Positions 1 to 6,087 of a stretch of DNA of 64,000 nt are shown one piece after another (the stretch's first letter is position 1; each line of letters opens with the position of its first letter). The position numbers and the translations under genes were made by a program. Source of the stretch: Chryseolinea soli (lineage in GTDB: Bacteria > Bacteroidota > Bacteroidia > Cytophagales > Cyclobacteriaceae); the NCBI RefSeq assembly GCF_003589925.1, contig NZ_CP032382.1, positions 3,348,001 to 3,412,000 of the forward strand, given 5' to 3'. A model generated the notes under the pieces. That model was not told the origin of the DNA. It ran no database searches and saw nothing but the letters and a program-made list of their open reading frames with translations.

Positions 1-1182
1 CTCCGTCACGCCTTCCTCGCCAGCCAGCGCCAGGCCATAAACATAGGGCCGGCCGATGCAAACCGCCGTGGCTCCCAGGGCCAGCGCCTTGAATGCATCG
101 GCGCCACCGCGGATGCCGCTGTCGAGCAGGATGGGAATTTTTTTGTTGACCACGGCCGCGATCGCCGGCAAGGCCTGCAGTGTTCCGATGGCGCCATCTA
201 CCTGGCGTCCGCCGTGGTTGGAGATCAGGATGCCGTCCATGCCGTGATCGATGGCTTTCAGGGCATCGTCGGGATGGAGAATGCCTTTCAGTACGATCGG
301 GAGTTTTGTGCAGGAGCGAAGAAAGGCCAGGTCTTCCCAGGTGGTACACGGGTTGGAATAGGTTGAGACAAACGTGCGCACGGCCTTCACCGGTTTGCCG
401 GACAAGAGCTTTTTGAGAAAGCCGCTTCCGGGATAGTGGTTCACCATCGAGACCAAACCCTGCAGCGTTCGAAGCGTGACGTGCCGTTTCATGTCGGGCG
501 CATCGTCGGGCAGGTCCAGCATTTTTTGAAAGACAGGATCGCTGGTGTATTGGGCAATGCCTTTGCCTTCCAGAAAGGGGAGATAGGCCAGCTCCAGGTC
601 GCGCGTGCGCCAACCCAGAAGGGTTGTGTCTAGCGTGACCACAATGGCGGAACAGCCACACTGTTCGGCGCGTCGCACAAAACTGGCGACAAGTTCATTC
701 GACTTACTCCAGTAAAGCTGAAACCAACGGGGTGACTGGTGCATGACTTCGGCGCAGGCCTCCATAGGCCGCGAGGCCTGATTGGAGAAAATGTAAGGCA
801 CACCAAACTGCGCGGCTACCCGGGCCACCGCGACGTCGGCTTCTTTGTGCACCATTTCCAAGACGCCGATGGGAGAGAGCAGAAAAGGGGTCGGAAGTTT
901 CCGGCCGAAGAGTGTGATGGAGGTGTCGCGCTCACCCACATCGCGCAACATGCGCGGCACAATCTTGTATTTCTCAAAAGCGTCGCGGTTGTTGCGCATC
1001 GTGCTTTCCCGGCCTGCGCCCCCGGCCACGTAGGCAAACGCTTCGGGGCGCATCACGCCGGCAGCGGCCTCTTCCAGTCGCGCAAAATCAATGTTCACTT
1101 TGGGGCTTATCCCGGCAAAGCCTTTCAGATAAATTTCTTTTTGCCACATAGCATCAGCGGATGTGAGCAGGGAAGATAACAT
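1..1182 (-). CDS. FMN-dependent alpha-hydroxy-acid oxidase (lactate oxidase/monooxygenase-like), C-terminus cut by window edge
   Basis: I translated this minus-strand frame directly; it runs open for 394 codons to base 1, so the C-terminus is missing. The family (lactate 2-monooxygenase, glycolate oxidase, L-lactate dehydrogenase LldD) oxidises 2-hydroxy acids with FMN. Visible family marks are an N-terminal FAYVAGGAG block, a strand LPIVLKGIL carrying the FMN/substrate lysine, the active-site block SNHGGRQVDG with the catalytic histidine, and the C-terminal phosphate-binding LLDSGIRGGADAFKAL followed by IGRPYVYGLAL. Only a short tail should be missing. The start is taken as ATG at 1182; a second ATG at 1149 (MWQKEIYLKG) is an equally plausible start that would remove 11 residues. 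It lies 62 bases after the anti-sigma gene on the same strand and may be its distal operon partner. Substrate and whether it acts as an oxidase or a dehydrogenase cannot be told from sequence. Confidence 0.9.
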   Translation of the reverse strand, partial: MLSSLLTSADAMWQKEIYLKGFAGISPKVNIDFARLEEAAAGVMRPEAFAYVAGGAGRESTMRNNRDAFEKYKIVPRMLRDVGERDTSITLFGRKLPTPFLLSPIGVLEMVHKEADVAVARVAAQFGVPYIFSNQASRPMEACAEVMHQSPRWFQLYWSKSNELVASFVRRAEQCGCSAIVVTLDTTLLGWRTRDLELAYLPFLEGKGIAQYTSDPVFQKMLDLPDDAPDMKRHVTLRTLQGLVSMVNHYPGSGFLKKLLSGKPVKAVRTFVSTYSNPCTTWEDLAFLRSCTKLPIVLKGILHPDDALKAIDHGMDGILISNHGGRQVDGAIGTLQALPAIAAVVNKKIPILLDSGIRGGADAFKALALGATAVCIGRPYVYGLALAGEEGVTE

Positions 1183-1244
1183 TTATTGGCCGCACTTCGA
1201 CAACGGCTGGGCCAATTCTAAAAGATGGATCGGGAGAAAAAATG

Positions 1245-2945
1245 TTATCGCATGAGTCTGTACGAAAGACCAACACTGACGCCCGGCCGGTACTGTTTCA
1301 GCGTGAAAGGAACATGAAGCGTCTCATTCACCAGCCAAGTGCGCGTAACCGAAGGCTGCACGATGAACGTAAGGCGACCATTCAGCGCCAGCTCGGCACG
1401 ATACAATATCTGGTAGTTCAAATAGCTGGACGAAGAGTTGTCATAGGGCTCACTGGACGAAGCATGGGCCAGCCCCTTTTGATATTGAAGACCCAGTCCG
1501 ATCTTATGCGAAAGCCGGTTTTCCGTCAGTGTATACAAAACGCCGGCCTGTGCGCCGATGTTCAGCATGCTGTAGGAAACCGAACGCTCTGCCGTGGTGG
1601 GTTTGACGGTATAGGAAAGATCGTCCCCACCATTTTCGATCACAAAGCTGCCCGAGCTTTGATAGGTGTATTGCAGGGTTTGCGACTGGTGATAGACCGA
1701 CAAGCCTGCGAAGTACTCAAACTTCTTCGACAACCGACCCTGCACGCCAGCCTCCAACCCAATTCCAAGCCGGTCGCCCGAAAGGATGGAAGGCTTGTTG
1801 AATTTCTGAATGATCACCCCGTCGCGAGCCGAGGGCGTGGCGGTTTGAAAGGAGAGGGTAGGACTGAACAACGCATAAAATGAAATGCCTGCCCGTTTCT
1901 TTTTGGGGCGGTTATAGGGGACCGTTTGCCCATCCGTCACGGCCGAGTCTGCAGGGGACAGATTAATCAAAACCCCGTTCAGTTGGGATGAGTCGCTAGC
2001 GTGTTTGATGTATGAACCTTGTGTTGATAGGTTCGCTGCGGATGAAGTTCCATCTGCTGGTTTGATCGCCTGCTGCGCGTTGTATGATAAGTTGTTCAGT
2101 GGGGATTCCTGTTTCGCAGATCCCTGGGATCCATCGGCGACCGCATCAAGCGCATTTGACTCCGTTGTTGACTGGGTCGTTACCGATGTAGTTCCATCTG
2201 CCGGTCTGATCGCCTGCGAAGTGTGGGATGATAAGTTGTTAGGTGAAGATTGCTGTTTCGCTGATCCCTGGGATCTATCGACAGCCGCATCAAGCGCTTT
2301 TGATTCCGCGTACGGAGTGCTTTGATCCGGTTGTAAATGGGAATGACGATTCTCGTTCGATGTCGGGAAGATGGATGAAGCGGGCGATGAGGCTGAGACC
2401 TGACTTTCCATGGAATGTGCCCCGGTTTGTGAATCGACATCAGATGCCAGATCATGTGCCGATCCTGAAGGTTGATTCAAGGAACTTGCATCGCTTGCAT
2501 CCGAATTTAAACCTGAACCTGCACCAGACAAAGATGACCCCGAGCCTTGACTTGACCCGGTGCTTTTTTTGTTCGTGAATGCATCTGCCGCAAGTTCCTG
2601 TTCGCCTGTTAGTAGCAAAGCATCTTTTGCGTCTGTATTCTCCGGATGAATTTGCGAATCGGTTGCACGATCGGGCGCGACGTCGTCAACGGATGCTGAC
2701 TTTGGTTGAACGATGGCCAGGGTATTCCCTCCAACCTCCGGTGCCGAACTATACCCCAAAGCCCATCCCAAAGCCGCCACCACAACGACCCCGGCAAATT
2801 GATTCATCCACGGTGCCCATACCGGTTTGCTGGACGGCAGGCCGGCGGCGATCTTTTGCCAGAGGTCGTCGTCGGGTTGTTCCGTGTAGTTGTTCAGGCG
2901 GTTTTCCAGCGCCTTGAACGCTTCGTGTTCAGGCAAGTTTTTCAT
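1245..2945 (-). CDS. Anti-sigma factor fused to an outer-membrane beta-barrel (dual membrane-spanning anti-sigma, Dma-like)
   Basis: 566 residues in four parts. Residues 1-45 are a small acidic/amphipathic cytoplasmic segment (FKALENRLNNY, DDDLWQKIAAGL) of the kind found at the N-terminus of Bacteroidota anti-sigma factors. Residues about 48-66 are one hydrophobic span (AGVVVVAALGWALGY). Residues about 67-350 are a Ser/Ala/Asp/Gln-rich low-complexity linker with an exact-length 48-residue tandem duplication (214-261 and 262-309). Residues about 352-566 alternate like a small outer-membrane barrel and end in SVGLSYRLMR, a typical last strand. The start overlaps the end of the ECF sigma gene by 17 bases, so the two are translationally linked. 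I infer that the N-terminus holds the sigma factor, the span anchors it in the inner membrane and the linker crosses the periplasm to a barrel in the outer membrane. I recall proteins of this plan described in Bacteroides as dual membrane-spanning anti-sigma factors. The alternative is an unrelated inner-membrane protein with a periplasmic beta domain. Confidence 0.8.
   Translation of the reverse strand: MKNLPEHEAFKALENRLNNYTEQPDDDLWQKIAAGLPSSKPVWAPWMNQFAGVVVVAALGWALGYSSAPEVGGNTLAIVQPKSASVDDVAPDRATDSQIHPENTDAKDALLLTGEQELAADAFTNKKSTGSSQGSGSSLSGAGSGLNSDASDASSLNQPSGSAHDLASDVDSQTGAHSMESQVSASSPASSIFPTSNENRHSHLQPDQSTPYAESKALDAAVDRSQGSAKQQSSPNNLSSHTSQAIRPADGTTSVTTQSTTESNALDAVADGSQGSAKQESPLNNLSYNAQQAIKPADGTSSAANLSTQGSYIKHASDSSQLNGVLINLSPADSAVTDGQTVPYNRPKKKRAGISFYALFSPTLSFQTATPSARDGVIIQKFNKPSILSGDRLGIGLEAGVQGRLSKKFEYFAGLSVYHQSQTLQYTYQSSGSFVIENGGDDLSYTVKPTTAERSVSYSMLNIGAQAGVLYTLTENRLSHKIGLGLQYQKGLAHASSSEPYDNSSSSYLNYQILYRAELALNGRLTFIVQPSVTRTWLVNETLHVPFTLKQYRPGVSVGLSYRLMR
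2019..2306 (-). repeat. 144-bp tandem duplication inside the anti-sigma linker
   Basis: Two adjacent in-frame copies, 2163-2306 (residues 214-261) and 2019-2162 (residues 262-309), each exactly 48 codons. Both begin ES(K/N)ALDA and contain SQGSAKQ and RPADGT/KPADGT at matching positions. The DNA word gatccctgggat recurs with a 144-base offset (2119 and 2263). The copies have diverged, so this is not an assembly duplication. Confidence 0.9.
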
Positions 2946-3492
2946 AGTAATGTGTCAGGTTCTGACATTTTAATTTTTTTTTCAACAGCTGCTTCGCGTG
3001 GTGAAACTGCGAGCGCGAAGTGCCCTCTGTGACGTGCAGCATTTCCGCGATCTCGGCATGACTGTAGCCTTCAACGGCAAACAAGTTGAACACCACCCGG
3101 CAGCCGTCGGGCAATTCGTTGATGAGCGTGAGCAGGTATTCGTCCGAAAAATTTTGGATGTCGGTATACAGCTCTGCGCCATCCTGGTTTTCGTTTTCTG
3201 TTGCGGGTGCAAAGATCATATCGTGCTTCTTGGTGCGGTGATATTGATTGATGGCCGTGTGCACCACAGTGGCCTTCATCCACGCTTCCAGTTTTTCGGG
3301 TGATGCCAATTGGTTCAGGTTGGTGAAGATCTTCACAAAGGAATCCTGTAACACGTCCTGTGCTTGTTCGCGGTCGCGCGTATAGCGGCGGCACAAACCC
3401 ATCAGCTTGCCTTTGAAAAGATCGTATAACATGCGCTGCGCTTTGGGCTCGCCCCGCTTACAGCGTTCGAATAAATCGTAGTGGCGGCTCAT
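2929..3492 (-). CDS. ECF-family RNA polymerase sigma factor
   Basis: 187 residues, the normal size for a group IV (ECF) sigma-70 factor. Region 2 is seen near residues 10-75 (LYDLFKGKLMGLCRRY, AQDVLQDSFVKIF), which binds core polymerase and melts the -10 element. Region 4 is near 125-180 (ELPDGCRVVFNLF, EGYSHAEIAEML, TEGTSRSQFHHAKQLL), a helix-turn-helix that reads the -35 element. The 3' end overlaps the anti-sigma/barrel gene by 17 bases, so its activity is very probably controlled by that protein at the envelope. Start is the ATG at 3492. A strong hairpin (3504-3528) lies 12 bases upstream and separates it from the preceding lipoprotein gene. The regulon is unknown; likely targets are envelope genes, by analogy with similar pairs. 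Confidence 0.92.
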   Translation of the reverse strand: MSRHYDLFERCKRGEPKAQRMLYDLFKGKLMGLCRRYTRDREQAQDVLQDSFVKIFTNLNQLASPEKLEAWMKATVVHTAINQYHRTKKHDMIFAPATENENQDGAELYTDIQNFSDEYLLTLINELPDGCRVVFNLFAVEGYSHAEIAEMLHVTEGTSRSQFHHAKQLLKKKLKCQNLTHYYEKLA

Positions 3493-3503
3493 GCGGTAAC
3501 GGT

Positions 3504-3528
3504 AAAAGCCTTCCCTTGCGGGAAGGCC
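3504..3528 (-). terminator. Rho-independent terminator or attenuator after the 3562-4578 lipoprotein gene
   Basis: Perfect 8-bp stem (3508-3515 with 3520-3527, GCCTTCCC/GGGAAGGC) closed by a 4-base loop. Read on the minus strand it is followed by CTTTTA, a short T run. It sits between the lipoprotein stop (3562) and the sigma start (3492), so it either ends the first transcript or attenuates read-through into the sigma gene. Confidence 0.6.
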
Positions 3529-3561
3529 TGTGAGGAGTATTTTTTTAGGGTCATGTCGAAA

Positions 3562-4578
3562 TCAACGGCTTACTTTTACGACCACTTTCGCCTGCCGGCA
3601 CACGGCGTCGCGACACAATTGATAGCGCAGCGAATCGGTACGCGAAGTGCCCGCCGGCAAATTGTCGGGCGTATACGTTATACCGTCCCACCCGATGCGT
3701 GCCTGCCCATACAACGGCGCCTTGGCGATACTCAGCGTGTAGCCATACGATGTGGTGTCGCAAAGGTTGTCGTTGGTAAAGACACGTAGCAATACCGTGT
3801 CGGCCTTTAACGTGTCGGGGTTGATCTGGAGGGTGTCGCCGAGCAACGTGAAGGTGCACAGGGGAGTTGGCTTGGAGGCGGCGATGTAAACATATCCGAA
3901 AACAAGATTTCTCAGGTCCCGCGACTGGATCTTGTAGAGGAGGGTGTCACCTTTCGTGTAAGATGCGCCAGCCGTGTAGATGATCTTGTTGTTTACGACG
4001 TCCGCACTCCCATGGCGCGGGCCGGTATTGTTGCCCTGCCAGAAAACACTCACCTGGTAGTCGAGCGTGTCGATGTTACAAAGATTGTCGTTGGCCAACA
4101 CATCGATCGTAAGCGGATGGTCGCCATGGAAATTGTAAACATAGTCGTCGGTAGGATAGAGGCCGCAGGGCAGTTTGGTGGAATCGGGCTCGACCACGAT
4201 CACCAGCGTGTCTTTGGCCAATATTTCGTGACTTTCGGAATAGACCGTGAATTCAAAGGCGTCGCGCGTGCTGGCGTTCCGGTTGTTGGGTGTATATCGC
4301 AGCAGCCCGAGGCCTAGCGAGGAAAGCTTGCCTTTGCTCGTGGGCTGTGTAACCGTCAGGGTCACAGGAAGATTCGTCCTGATCCGCTCGTTCAGGTCGA
4401 TTACCGACGCACGGTTGTTGGATACATAGACTTCATTGCCATTCAATTCCGCGTCGGGTATGAGCACATCGGGGTCTTCTTTCAGGGTGTCGCATGCTGT
4501 AAAACAAAGCGCCAGGGCACCCATCAATAAAATACCGAAAAGAATTTCTGACTTCAGGAATATTTTAGTTGTTTTCAT
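3562..4578 (-). CDS. Exported lipoprotein with Ig/cadherin-like repeats
   Basis: 338 residues. The N-terminus is a signal peptide with a lipobox (LCFTAC, cysteine at about residue 29), so it is probably a surface or periplasmic lipoprotein. The rest is beta-rich and contains DVLANDNLC and FTNDNLCD blocks about 95 residues apart, each preceding a TLDYQVSV/YGYTLSI strand. This is the pattern of cadherin-like (Big_9/VCBS-type) domains. A third, N-terminal copy is suggested by LSSLGLGLLRYTPNNR and the matching GITYTPDNLPAG near the C-terminus. Several cysteines recur after each repeat and may form disulfides. It is divergent from cinA with an 84-base shared promoter region. No enzymatic motif is visible; adhesion or binding is a guess. 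Confidence 0.75.
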   Translation of the reverse strand: MKTTKIFLKSEILFGILLMGALALCFTACDTLKEDPDVLIPDAELNGNEVYVSNNRASVIDLNERIRTNLPVTLTVTQPTSKGKLSSLGLGLLRYTPNNRNASTRDAFEFTVYSESHEILAKDTLVIVVEPDSTKLPCGLYPTDDYVYNFHGDHPLTIDVLANDNLCNIDTLDYQVSVFWQGNNTGPRHGSADVVNNKIIYTAGASYTKGDTLLYKIQSRDLRNLVFGYVYIAASKPTPLCTFTLLGDTLQINPDTLKADTVLLRVFTNDNLCDTTSYGYTLSIAKAPLYGQARIGWDGITYTPDNLPAGTSRTDSLRYQLCRDAVCRQAKVVVKVSR

Positions 4579-4662
4579 GTTTGTACGATTAGGCTTCCGC
4601 CGGGTAAGACCTCATGCGGGGAGATAACGTTGGACGAGCCGGGTAAATTTTTCAGAAAAATA

Positions 4663-5973
4663 ATGAACCACAGAACCATAACCGCCGAGCTCCTCACGAT
4701 AGGAGACGAAATTCTTTACGGACAAATCACCGACACCAACGCCCAATGGATGAGTGTCGAACTGGGCTTAGCCGGCATCAAAGTGGTCCGCAAGACCAGT
4801 GTGGGCGACGTTGAGAGCGAGATCCTCACCGCTCTGGCCGAAGCCGAACAACGCGTGGACATCGTGCTCATCACCGGCGGCCTGGGCCCGACCAACGACG
4901 ACCTGACCAAACCCTGCCTGGCAAAATATTTTAACTGCGGTCTCAAAATGAACGAAGAGGCCCTGGCCGAGGTAACCGCATTCTTTGCCAGCCGCGGCCG
5001 CGAGCTCACGGCCGTGAACCGCCAGCAAGCCGCCTTGCCCGAATGCTGCGAGAAGGTCACAAACAAAATGGGCACGGCCCCGGGCATGTGGTTCCATCGA
5101 AACGGAAAAGTGTTTGTCTCCATGCCCGGTGTGCCCCACGAGATGAAACGCATGATGACCGACATCGTCATCCCCAAGCTCAAACAGACCTTCCCCACAC
5201 CGGTCATCGTGCACAAAGTGATCCGCACCGTGGGCATTGGCGAATCCTTCCTGGCCGACAAGATCGCCGCGTGGGAAAATGCGCTTCCGCCCCATATCAA
5301 GCTGGCTTACCTGCCCGGCCTGGGTGAAGTGAAGCTCCGGCTCACGGCCATCGGTGACACCGAAGCAGAACTGAAAGCAGAGACCGAGGCCCTCAGCGAC
5401 CAGTTGCAACCCCTTGTCGGCAGTTTCATCTACGCGCATGGCGAGGAATCCCTGGAGGTAACAGTCGGCAAATTGCTGCGCGAAGCCAAGCTCACCCTCT
5501 CCATTGCCGAGAGCTGCACCGGGGGATACCTCTCACACCTCATCACCAGCGTGCCGGGCTGCTCCGACTATTACCTGGGCACCATGATCCCCTATTCCTA
5601 CGAAGTAAAAATGCGTCAGCTTGGGGTGAGACCTGAGGTGCTGGAAAAACACGGCGCCGTGAGCGAGCCTACCATCATCGAAATGGCCAACATCGTCCGC
5701 GCCAAATTCAACACCCACATCGGCGTAGCCACCAGCGGCATCGCCGGCCCCGGCGGAGCTACCCCCGAGAAACCCGTGGGCACGGTCTGGATTGCTTTCT
5801 CGGACAAGGACAAAACGGTCACAAGGAAACTACAGCTGTCACCCGACAGAGAAATCAATATTAAAATGGCATCGGTAGCGGTGTTAAATTTGATCCGGCA
5901 GAACGTGGAGAGATCAGGAGCTAAAGTACAGGAGCCAGAAGCCAGGAGCCAGGAGCCAGGAGTCAGAAGTTAG
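4663..5973 (+). CDS. cinA: CinA-family nicotinamide-nucleotide amidohydrolase
   Basis: About 436 residues from the ATG at 4663. The frame is open upstream to a TTG at 4630, but the ATG gives the canonical N-terminus just before ELLTIGDEILYGQITDTNA. That block is the MoaB-like CinA/COG1058 domain (residues about 8-175, with TGGLGPTNDDLT). The C-terminal half carries the amidase signature AESCTGGYLSHLITSVPG and the downstream TSGIAGPGG. Family members convert NMN to nicotinate mononucleotide in pyridine-nucleotide salvage, and some have ADP-ribose pyrophosphatase activity in the first domain. The recognisable core ends about LNLIRQNVERSG. The last 20 or so residues (EPEARSQEPGVRS at the end) are encoded by a run of 7-bp repeats at 5917-5972, so the tail and stop codon appear to come from a repeat insertion. 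Confidence 0.95.
   Translation: MNHRTITAELLTIGDEILYGQITDTNAQWMSVELGLAGIKVVRKTSVGDVESEILTALAEAEQRVDIVLITGGLGPTNDDLTKPCLAKYFNCGLKMNEEALAEVTAFFASRGRELTAVNRQQAALPECCEKVTNKMGTAPGMWFHRNGKVFVSMPGVPHEMKRMMTDIVIPKLKQTFPTPVIVHKVIRTVGIGESFLADKIAAWENALPPHIKLAYLPGLGEVKLRLTAIGDTEAELKAETEALSDQLQPLVGSFIYAHGEESLEVTVGKLLREAKLTLSIAESCTGGYLSHLITSVPGCSDYYLGTMIPYSYEVKMRQLGVRPEVLEKHGAVSEPTIIEMANIVRAKFNTHIGVATSGIAGPGGATPEKPVGTVWIAFSDKDKTVTRKLQLSPDREINIKMASVAVLNLIRQNVERSGAKVQEPEARSQEPGVRS
5917..5972 (+). repeat. Heptameric tandem repeat array (eight 7-bp units) overlapping the 3' end of cinA
   Basis: Eight contiguous 7-bp units: GGAGCTA, AAGTACA, GGAGCCA, GAAGCCA, GGAGCCA, GGAGCCA, GGAGTCA, GAAGTTA. Consensus is GGAGCCA. 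The array encodes the odd CinA tail and supplies its TAG stop. A second array of the same motif in the opposite orientation lies at 6088-6136. Confidence 0.85.
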
Positions 5974-6087
5974 AATACAAGCGGACTTGTATTTTTGTAT
6001 CCTGATTCTTGCGATTGACAAAACTTGCAGCTAACTAGACCCCTACAGGCGCCGCAAAATTTATCCCCCCAACCCGGCCCTAATATT

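Follow-up and report, generated by a model that had tools for sequence, protein, structure and literature searches.

The window analysed here is a stretch of 64,000 nucleotides from Chryseolinea soli (NZ_CP032382.1, positions 3,348,001 to 3,412,000), which carries on its minus strand an extracytoplasmic function (ECF) sigma factor gene and an overlapping gene of 566 aa that together most probably form a Dma/Reo-type dual-membrane anti-sigma system. The assignment is founded on the gene order, the overlap, the predicted barrel and disorder of the 566-aa protein and the clade of the sigma factor; the docking of the two proteins, their placement in the membranes of this species, the inducing signal and the set of target genes are presumed. 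This kind of anti-sigma factor is already published for Bacteroides and Phocaeicola and the window provides a new divergent member; the novelty resides in a barrel subfamily invisible to Pfam, in a tether varying by 48-residue units and in a split version of the system in relatives. The source genome is a single contig of 8.24 Mb, and the closest named protein relatives retrieved by a protein search belong to Chryseolinea.

The open reading frames (ORFs) and the predicted fold confirm the domain order and the 17-base overlap claimed in a preliminary description of this DNA (Table 1); the overlap is identical in 8 of 9 sigma/anti-sigma pairs of the subfamily. The single inner-membrane span that had been proposed corresponds to a predicted helix at residues 44-64 and to one hydrophobic stretch (residues 42-69, from windows 42-60 and 51-69), and the long duplicated linker is found as a Ser/Ala-rich tether with two 48-aa repeats, for which the single-chain prediction gives a predicted local distance difference test score (pLDDT) below 50 over residues 35-348 and no secondary structure over residues 65-354. 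As to the C-terminal part, for which an outer-membrane barrel had been set against a soluble periplasmic fold, structure prediction gave an outer-membrane beta-barrel, NspA/OmpA/OmpW-like among the fold families compared.

Table 1. Features of the window and of related loci (window coordinates where no locus is named; TM, transmembrane).
Feature	Position	Strand	Basis or remark
Probable Dma/Reo-type dual-membrane anti-sigma gene, 566 aa	1245..2945	-	ORF, alignment, predicted fold
Residues 1-43, presumed cytoplasmic anti-sigma segment, two helices, P...W..I...L motif	2817..2945	-	predicted fold, alignment
Residues 44-64, predicted single inner-membrane helix	2754..2816	-	predicted fold, hydropathy
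Residues 65-350, predicted disordered Ser/Ala-rich tether	1896..2753	-	predicted fold, sequence
First 48-aa tether repeat, residues 215-262	2160..2303	-	
Second 48-aa tether repeat, residues 263-310	2016..2159	-	
Residues 351-566, predicted outer-membrane beta-barrel, NspA/OmpA/OmpW-like fold	1248..1895	-	predicted fold, structure comparison
ECF sigma factor, 187 aa, of the clade partnering Dma-plan genes	2929..3492	-	Pfam, tree, profile
Sigma/anti-sigma overlap, 17 bases	2929..2945	-	ORF coordinates
RNA hairpin directly upstream of the sigma start	3506..3529	-	
Lipoprotein-like gene, 338 aa, Big_9 (Ig-like) domains, upstream of sigma	3562..4578	-	ORF, Pfam
Further Dma-plan gene, 650 aa, same genome	L054 2633-4585	minus	barrel recognised by Pfam
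Further Dma-plan gene, 594 aa, same genome	L063 2208-3992	minus	barrel recognised by Pfam
Sigma-TM-tether-barrel fusions, 551 and 554 aa (G352)	L222 561-2216, L223 823-2487	minus	
Downstream lipoprotein-like genes of relatives	L034 2374-3111, L035 609-1325, L036 83-835, L206 1803-2528		L034 copy DUF4197 by Pfam, others look alike

The sigma factor places the pair most directly. In a quick tree without bootstrap, one clade (59 of 143 sigma-like rows, SH-aLRT 93) contains all 45 sigma factors that partner Dma-plan genes, including that of the window and two from Bacteroides; the rest of the clade consists of all 13 partners of short-form anti-sigma factors and of the L048 sigma of this genome, and the other 84 rows all fall outside (one of the 60 sigma factors fetched from this genome was left out by length). 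The grouping is informative because the census loci described below were picked by the anti-sigma and not by the sigma. In addition, when 60 sigma-like proteins of this genome are scored with a profile of 39 census and 2 Bacteroides sigma factors that excludes the window's taxonomic family, the window's sigma comes third, and the scores drop from 186 to 107 bits below the fifth-ranked one. Judged by tree and profile and not by an ECF21 model, this sigma factor can be assigned to the Dma-partner group, called ECF21 in print.

The literature bears out the family that the preliminary description had named: the Dma plan is in print with exactly the same domain order, comprising an anti-sigma segment, a TM helix, a disordered tether and a barrel beside an adjacent ECF21 sigma (PMC13088901). 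A similar protein is described in Phocaeicola vulgatus (PMC9308784); this anti-sigma factor is predicted to cross the periplasm and to end in an outer-membrane barrel, the sigma regulon is switched on when it is disrupted, and expression of the sigma gene rises 33-fold in response to the toxin BcpT. That pair, named EcfO-Reo, is induced by BcpT or Bd-A, and outer-membrane stress has been proposed as its signal (PMC13114119); bacteroidetocin A, taken to be the same compound as Bd-A, is described as an inhibitor of BamA (PMC9308784). Compared by description, Dma1/Das1, Dma2/Das2 and Dma3 of Bacteroides thetaiotaomicron (Pardue et al.; PMC13088901) share with the window, also of Bacteroidota, the domain order and an adjacent ECF sigma of apparently the same clade; unlike them, the window system belongs to Chryseolinea, has a divergent barrel invisible to Pfam and 48-aa tether repeats, and neighbours a lipoprotein gene with Big_9 and not NigD. 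In EcfO-Reo of Bacteroides fragilis and P. vulgatus (PMC9308784, PMC13114119) the anti-sigma factor is described as reaching from the cytoplasm to the surface and lies downstream of the ECF sigma, as in the window; its own regulon includes nigD genes.

The Bacteroides side can also be reached from the sigma factor. Applied to Bacteroides sp. GM023, a Cytophagales-side sigma profile free of Bacteroides sequences yielded 51 matches, of which the top two (E 3e-51 and 6e-49) are well ahead of the next (7e-24). Downstream of each of these two lies a gene whose product has a single TM helix near its start, then a linker and a C-terminal part resembling OMP_b-brl; the first partner (422 aa) matches OMP_b-brl_2 above cut-off, the second (346 aa) has a best match of E 6e-6, below cut-off. 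Since a gene carrying NigD_N and NigD_C lies divergent to the first pair, this pair is very probably the Dma1/Reo locus. A sigma factor of the Dma-partner type is present in all 31 Bacteroides-group genomes (weakest best match 1.3e-45); a second protein search, with 16 proteins, added no named Bacteroides Dma.

At rest, the N-terminal cytoplasmic helices of the 566-aa protein would keep the ECF sigma at the inner membrane, with one helix crossing this membrane, the flexible tether crossing the periplasm and the C-terminal barrel seated in the outer membrane. A disturbance of the outer membrane, most probably failed assembly or retention of the barrel or else strain on the tether, would alter or destroy the protein and free the sigma, which would transcribe the operon it belongs to together with a small set of envelope genes, the neighbouring lipoprotein gene perhaps among them. 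That barrel-assembly or outer-membrane stress is the signal can be proposed tentatively, at a little below an even chance; a failure of the barrel assembly machinery (BAM) is attractive in this role because the protein is likely a BAM client and a BamA inhibitor induces a relative. The relay of FecI, FecR and a TonB-dependent receptor likewise passes an outer-membrane event on to an ECF sigma by way of an anti-sigma in the inner membrane; that relay uses separate proteins and the receptor, whereas in the window sensor and anti-sigma would lie in one chain. As regards a TonB-dependent receptor beside the pair, no receptor-sized ORF occurs in positions 1-6000, where Pfam was run on only three ORFs; above 250 aa, this region contains the 566-aa gene, the Big_9 gene and a CinA-like gene, and the gene truncated at the left end of the window has 425 aa in G002. 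A search of a BAM paper (PMC12611786) for sigma or stress-response terms found none.

The Dma plan appears, from profile matches, to be common and widespread in Bacteroidota. The census scored at most five candidates per genome in most of 296 genomes and a subset of the matches was read; the window-subfamily profile matches in 58 genomes, and at least 40 Dma-plan pairs, defined by a length of 388-609 aa and an early TM helix (with crude ORF starts and TM helices by hydropathy), occur in 37 of the 296, covering 10 families, with 23 in one family and two outside the window's class. Besides the window, 60 loci were read and gave 53 sigma/anti-sigma pairs, namely 40 of the Dma plan and 13 short ones; the 7 dropped loci had a sigma below 150 aa (L116), no adjacent sigma (L117, L128, L163, L167) or no profile ORF (L133, L162). 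Among 14 Dma-plan proteins outside the core of the window's subfamily, 8 pass the OMP_b-brl cut-off of Pfam, 4 more have E below 1e-3 and 2 do neither. The dual-membrane anti-sigma of Bacteroides is thus not limited to the gut, the same sigma clade having it in at least 10 of the taxonomic families sampled. The window had been expected to extend the Dma family; it does so as a divergent member outside Bacteroides with a repeat-built tether, and only modestly, because the plan is so widespread.

The 13 short anti-sigma factors (237-301 aa) reveal a second gene plan. In 12 cases the next gene has a signal-peptide-like start (by eye and hydropathy), and of these genes 7 pass the OMP_b-brl_2 cut-off, one lies below it (E 5e-4), three have no match and one, cut by a contig end, has none either; at least 7 of the 13 have a split version made of sigma, short anti-sigma and separate barrel gene. 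No description of this plan was found in open-licence papers, and it may be known. It lends some support to the idea that the fused protein too is made as one chain and normally cut in the tether, the working state being an inner-membrane anti-sigma stub and a free outer-membrane barrel as in the split operons, in which case the physical link would matter only for delivery or stoichiometry; the weak constraint on the tether (dN/dS, the ratio of nonsynonymous to synonymous substitution rates, of 0.50) points the same way. However, the full-length subfamily relatives keep N-terminus and barrel in one chain, one relative, G014, has lost the N-terminal half altogether, and 40 of 53 pairs have the fused plan; a normally cut form is quite unlikely.

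A third plan, the sigma-barrel single chain likened to the published Dma3, occurs in one of the 31 Bacteroides-group genomes (G352, L222 and L223). These fusions are unusable as a view of docking, since the sigma joins the TM helix directly with no anti-sigma segment between. It is conceivable, if rather unlikely, that one Bacteroidota sigma clade has been wired repeatedly to a small outer-membrane barrel by these three plans (fused dual-membrane anti-sigma, short anti-sigma with separate barrel, sigma-helix-tether-barrel fusion), the Chryseolinea protein then being a gauge of adjustable length between the membranes and the split operons encoding that sensor in non-covalent form. In any case, repeat-built tethers and split operons are natural variants for asking whether tether length or covalent linkage matters in sensing.

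In an alignment of 14 proteins the N-terminus and the barrel are conserved and the tether is variable in sequence and length. The 48-aa unit is present once in P0005, twice in the window protein, three times in P0001 and P0004, four times in P0003 and once in the short entry P0011, and was not recognised in the other eight proteins at the threshold used; tether length changes by whole 48-residue units. With respect to the orthologue in G002, identity is 96% for the sigma, 93% for residues 1-45, 64% for the tether and 86% for the barrel, with dN/dS of 0.03, 0.39, 0.50 and 0.19, respectively. The synonymous rate is low in the first 45 anti-sigma codons (dS 0.07 in window positions 2811-2945, versus 0.35 over the gene), a region that reaches past the 17-base overlap.

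Six sigma factors of this genome are set apart by the sigma profile (E 3.6e-88 to 5.6e-49, next 4.5e-28), three of them being themselves in the profile. Dma-plan partners are those of the window, L063 and L054; a third further copy is probably the partner of L211 (L211/L212, own genome about 2114300), the next gene, whose 412-aa product has a single TM helix, a linker of coiled appearance and a sub-threshold OMP_b-brl_2 match. L060 has a short anti-sigma; that of L048 is short and frame-broken and is accompanied by a separate gene resembling a barrel, which matches OMP_b-brl_2 at E 0.002, below cut-off. Downstream DNA was read for 60 of the 80 sigma-region-4 matches of the genome, for one more and for the window's own. 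Five of 21 OMP_b-brl_2 matches (E up to 0.01) have one of the 80 at most 3 kb upstream of them on their strand (0.3 expected by random placement; hypergeometric 5e-5, post hoc); they stand beside 4 of the 6 clade sigmas (two below the Pfam cut-off) and 1 of the 74 others, a very weak match; the window's own barrel goes undetected. The L211 sigma, sixth of the clade, looks frame-broken near region 4. In L048 (own genome 4265500-4272500; minus strand 3625-4460) the anti-sigma frame is broken at an A run after the anti-sigma segment, which could be an assembly error, decay or slippage.

Several observations weigh against the assignment. The N-terminal helices are of low confidence (pLDDT 41-53 in the first five blocks), and no solved-structure relative of this segment was found, 8 matches at E 0.87-4 being at chance level. 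The census N-terminus profile matches the window at E 2e-8 and the best decoy, among 38 other sigma-following proteins of this genome, at E 1.2e-8; because some decoys match as well, the N-terminus alone is not proof of Dma membership, and the profile was dropped as evidence for it. Low confidence and the missing match to a solved anti-sigma domain would also suit a first 64 residues that are a mere long signal or anchor of an ordinary outer-membrane protein, the sigma partnership being incidental; this is very improbable in view of the P...W..I...L motif, whose tryptophan (W29) is shared by at least 90% of the N-termini when 20 sigma-adjacent genes from the phylum are aligned, of the overlap with the sigma gene and of the OMP_b-brl_2 matches beside clade sigmas. 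Furthermore, the induction data come from gut relatives only, the 566-aa protein has no significant Pfam or NCBIfam domain, and a barrel profile from 39 census proteins scores it only at E 0.21 (decoys 0.47). The barrel-family match anticipated in the preliminary description was found in relatives, which match OMP_b-brl, and failed for the window's own protein; the link to the census barrels runs through the relatives P0014 (E 4e-5 with the census profile) and P0012 (E 0.0015) and through the fold, and the window barrel is best regarded as a divergent subfamily missed by Pfam. A soluble or inner-leaflet beta domain, with the inner membrane alone spanned, would agree with the absent Pfam match and with the terminal LMR, which lacks the aromatic residue usual at barrel ends (present in the last three residues of 28 of 40 census proteins), and is marginally less probable than the signal-or-anchor reading. 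Because the barrel is nearly invisible to profiles and the N-terminus does not discriminate, Dma membership is claimed from sigma clade, fold and order of parts in combination.

Upstream of the sigma gene, a similar lipoprotein-like gene is found in all four relatives read (G001, G002, G003 and G028), and in all four a CinA-like gene, named by look, is divergent to it. The window and all four relatives read (L041, L042, L034 and L035) have a strong hairpin between the end of the lipoprotein gene and the start of the sigma gene, with its position kept and its sequence little conserved; it is perhaps a partial terminator setting the lipoprotein-to-sigma ratio. A scan of positions 1100-4750 that does not cover ECF promoters found no sigma-70-type promoter (2.5 expected). 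Directly downstream of the Dma gene or its remnant, four relatives have a second lipoprotein-like gene, not found there in the window. In L206 of G014 (2753-3775, minus strand) the product looks like the upstream lipoprotein in its N-terminal part and like the tether and barrel of a Dma in its C-terminal part; sigma, anti-sigma segment and Dma TM helix are all missing between the two, as if by one deletion.
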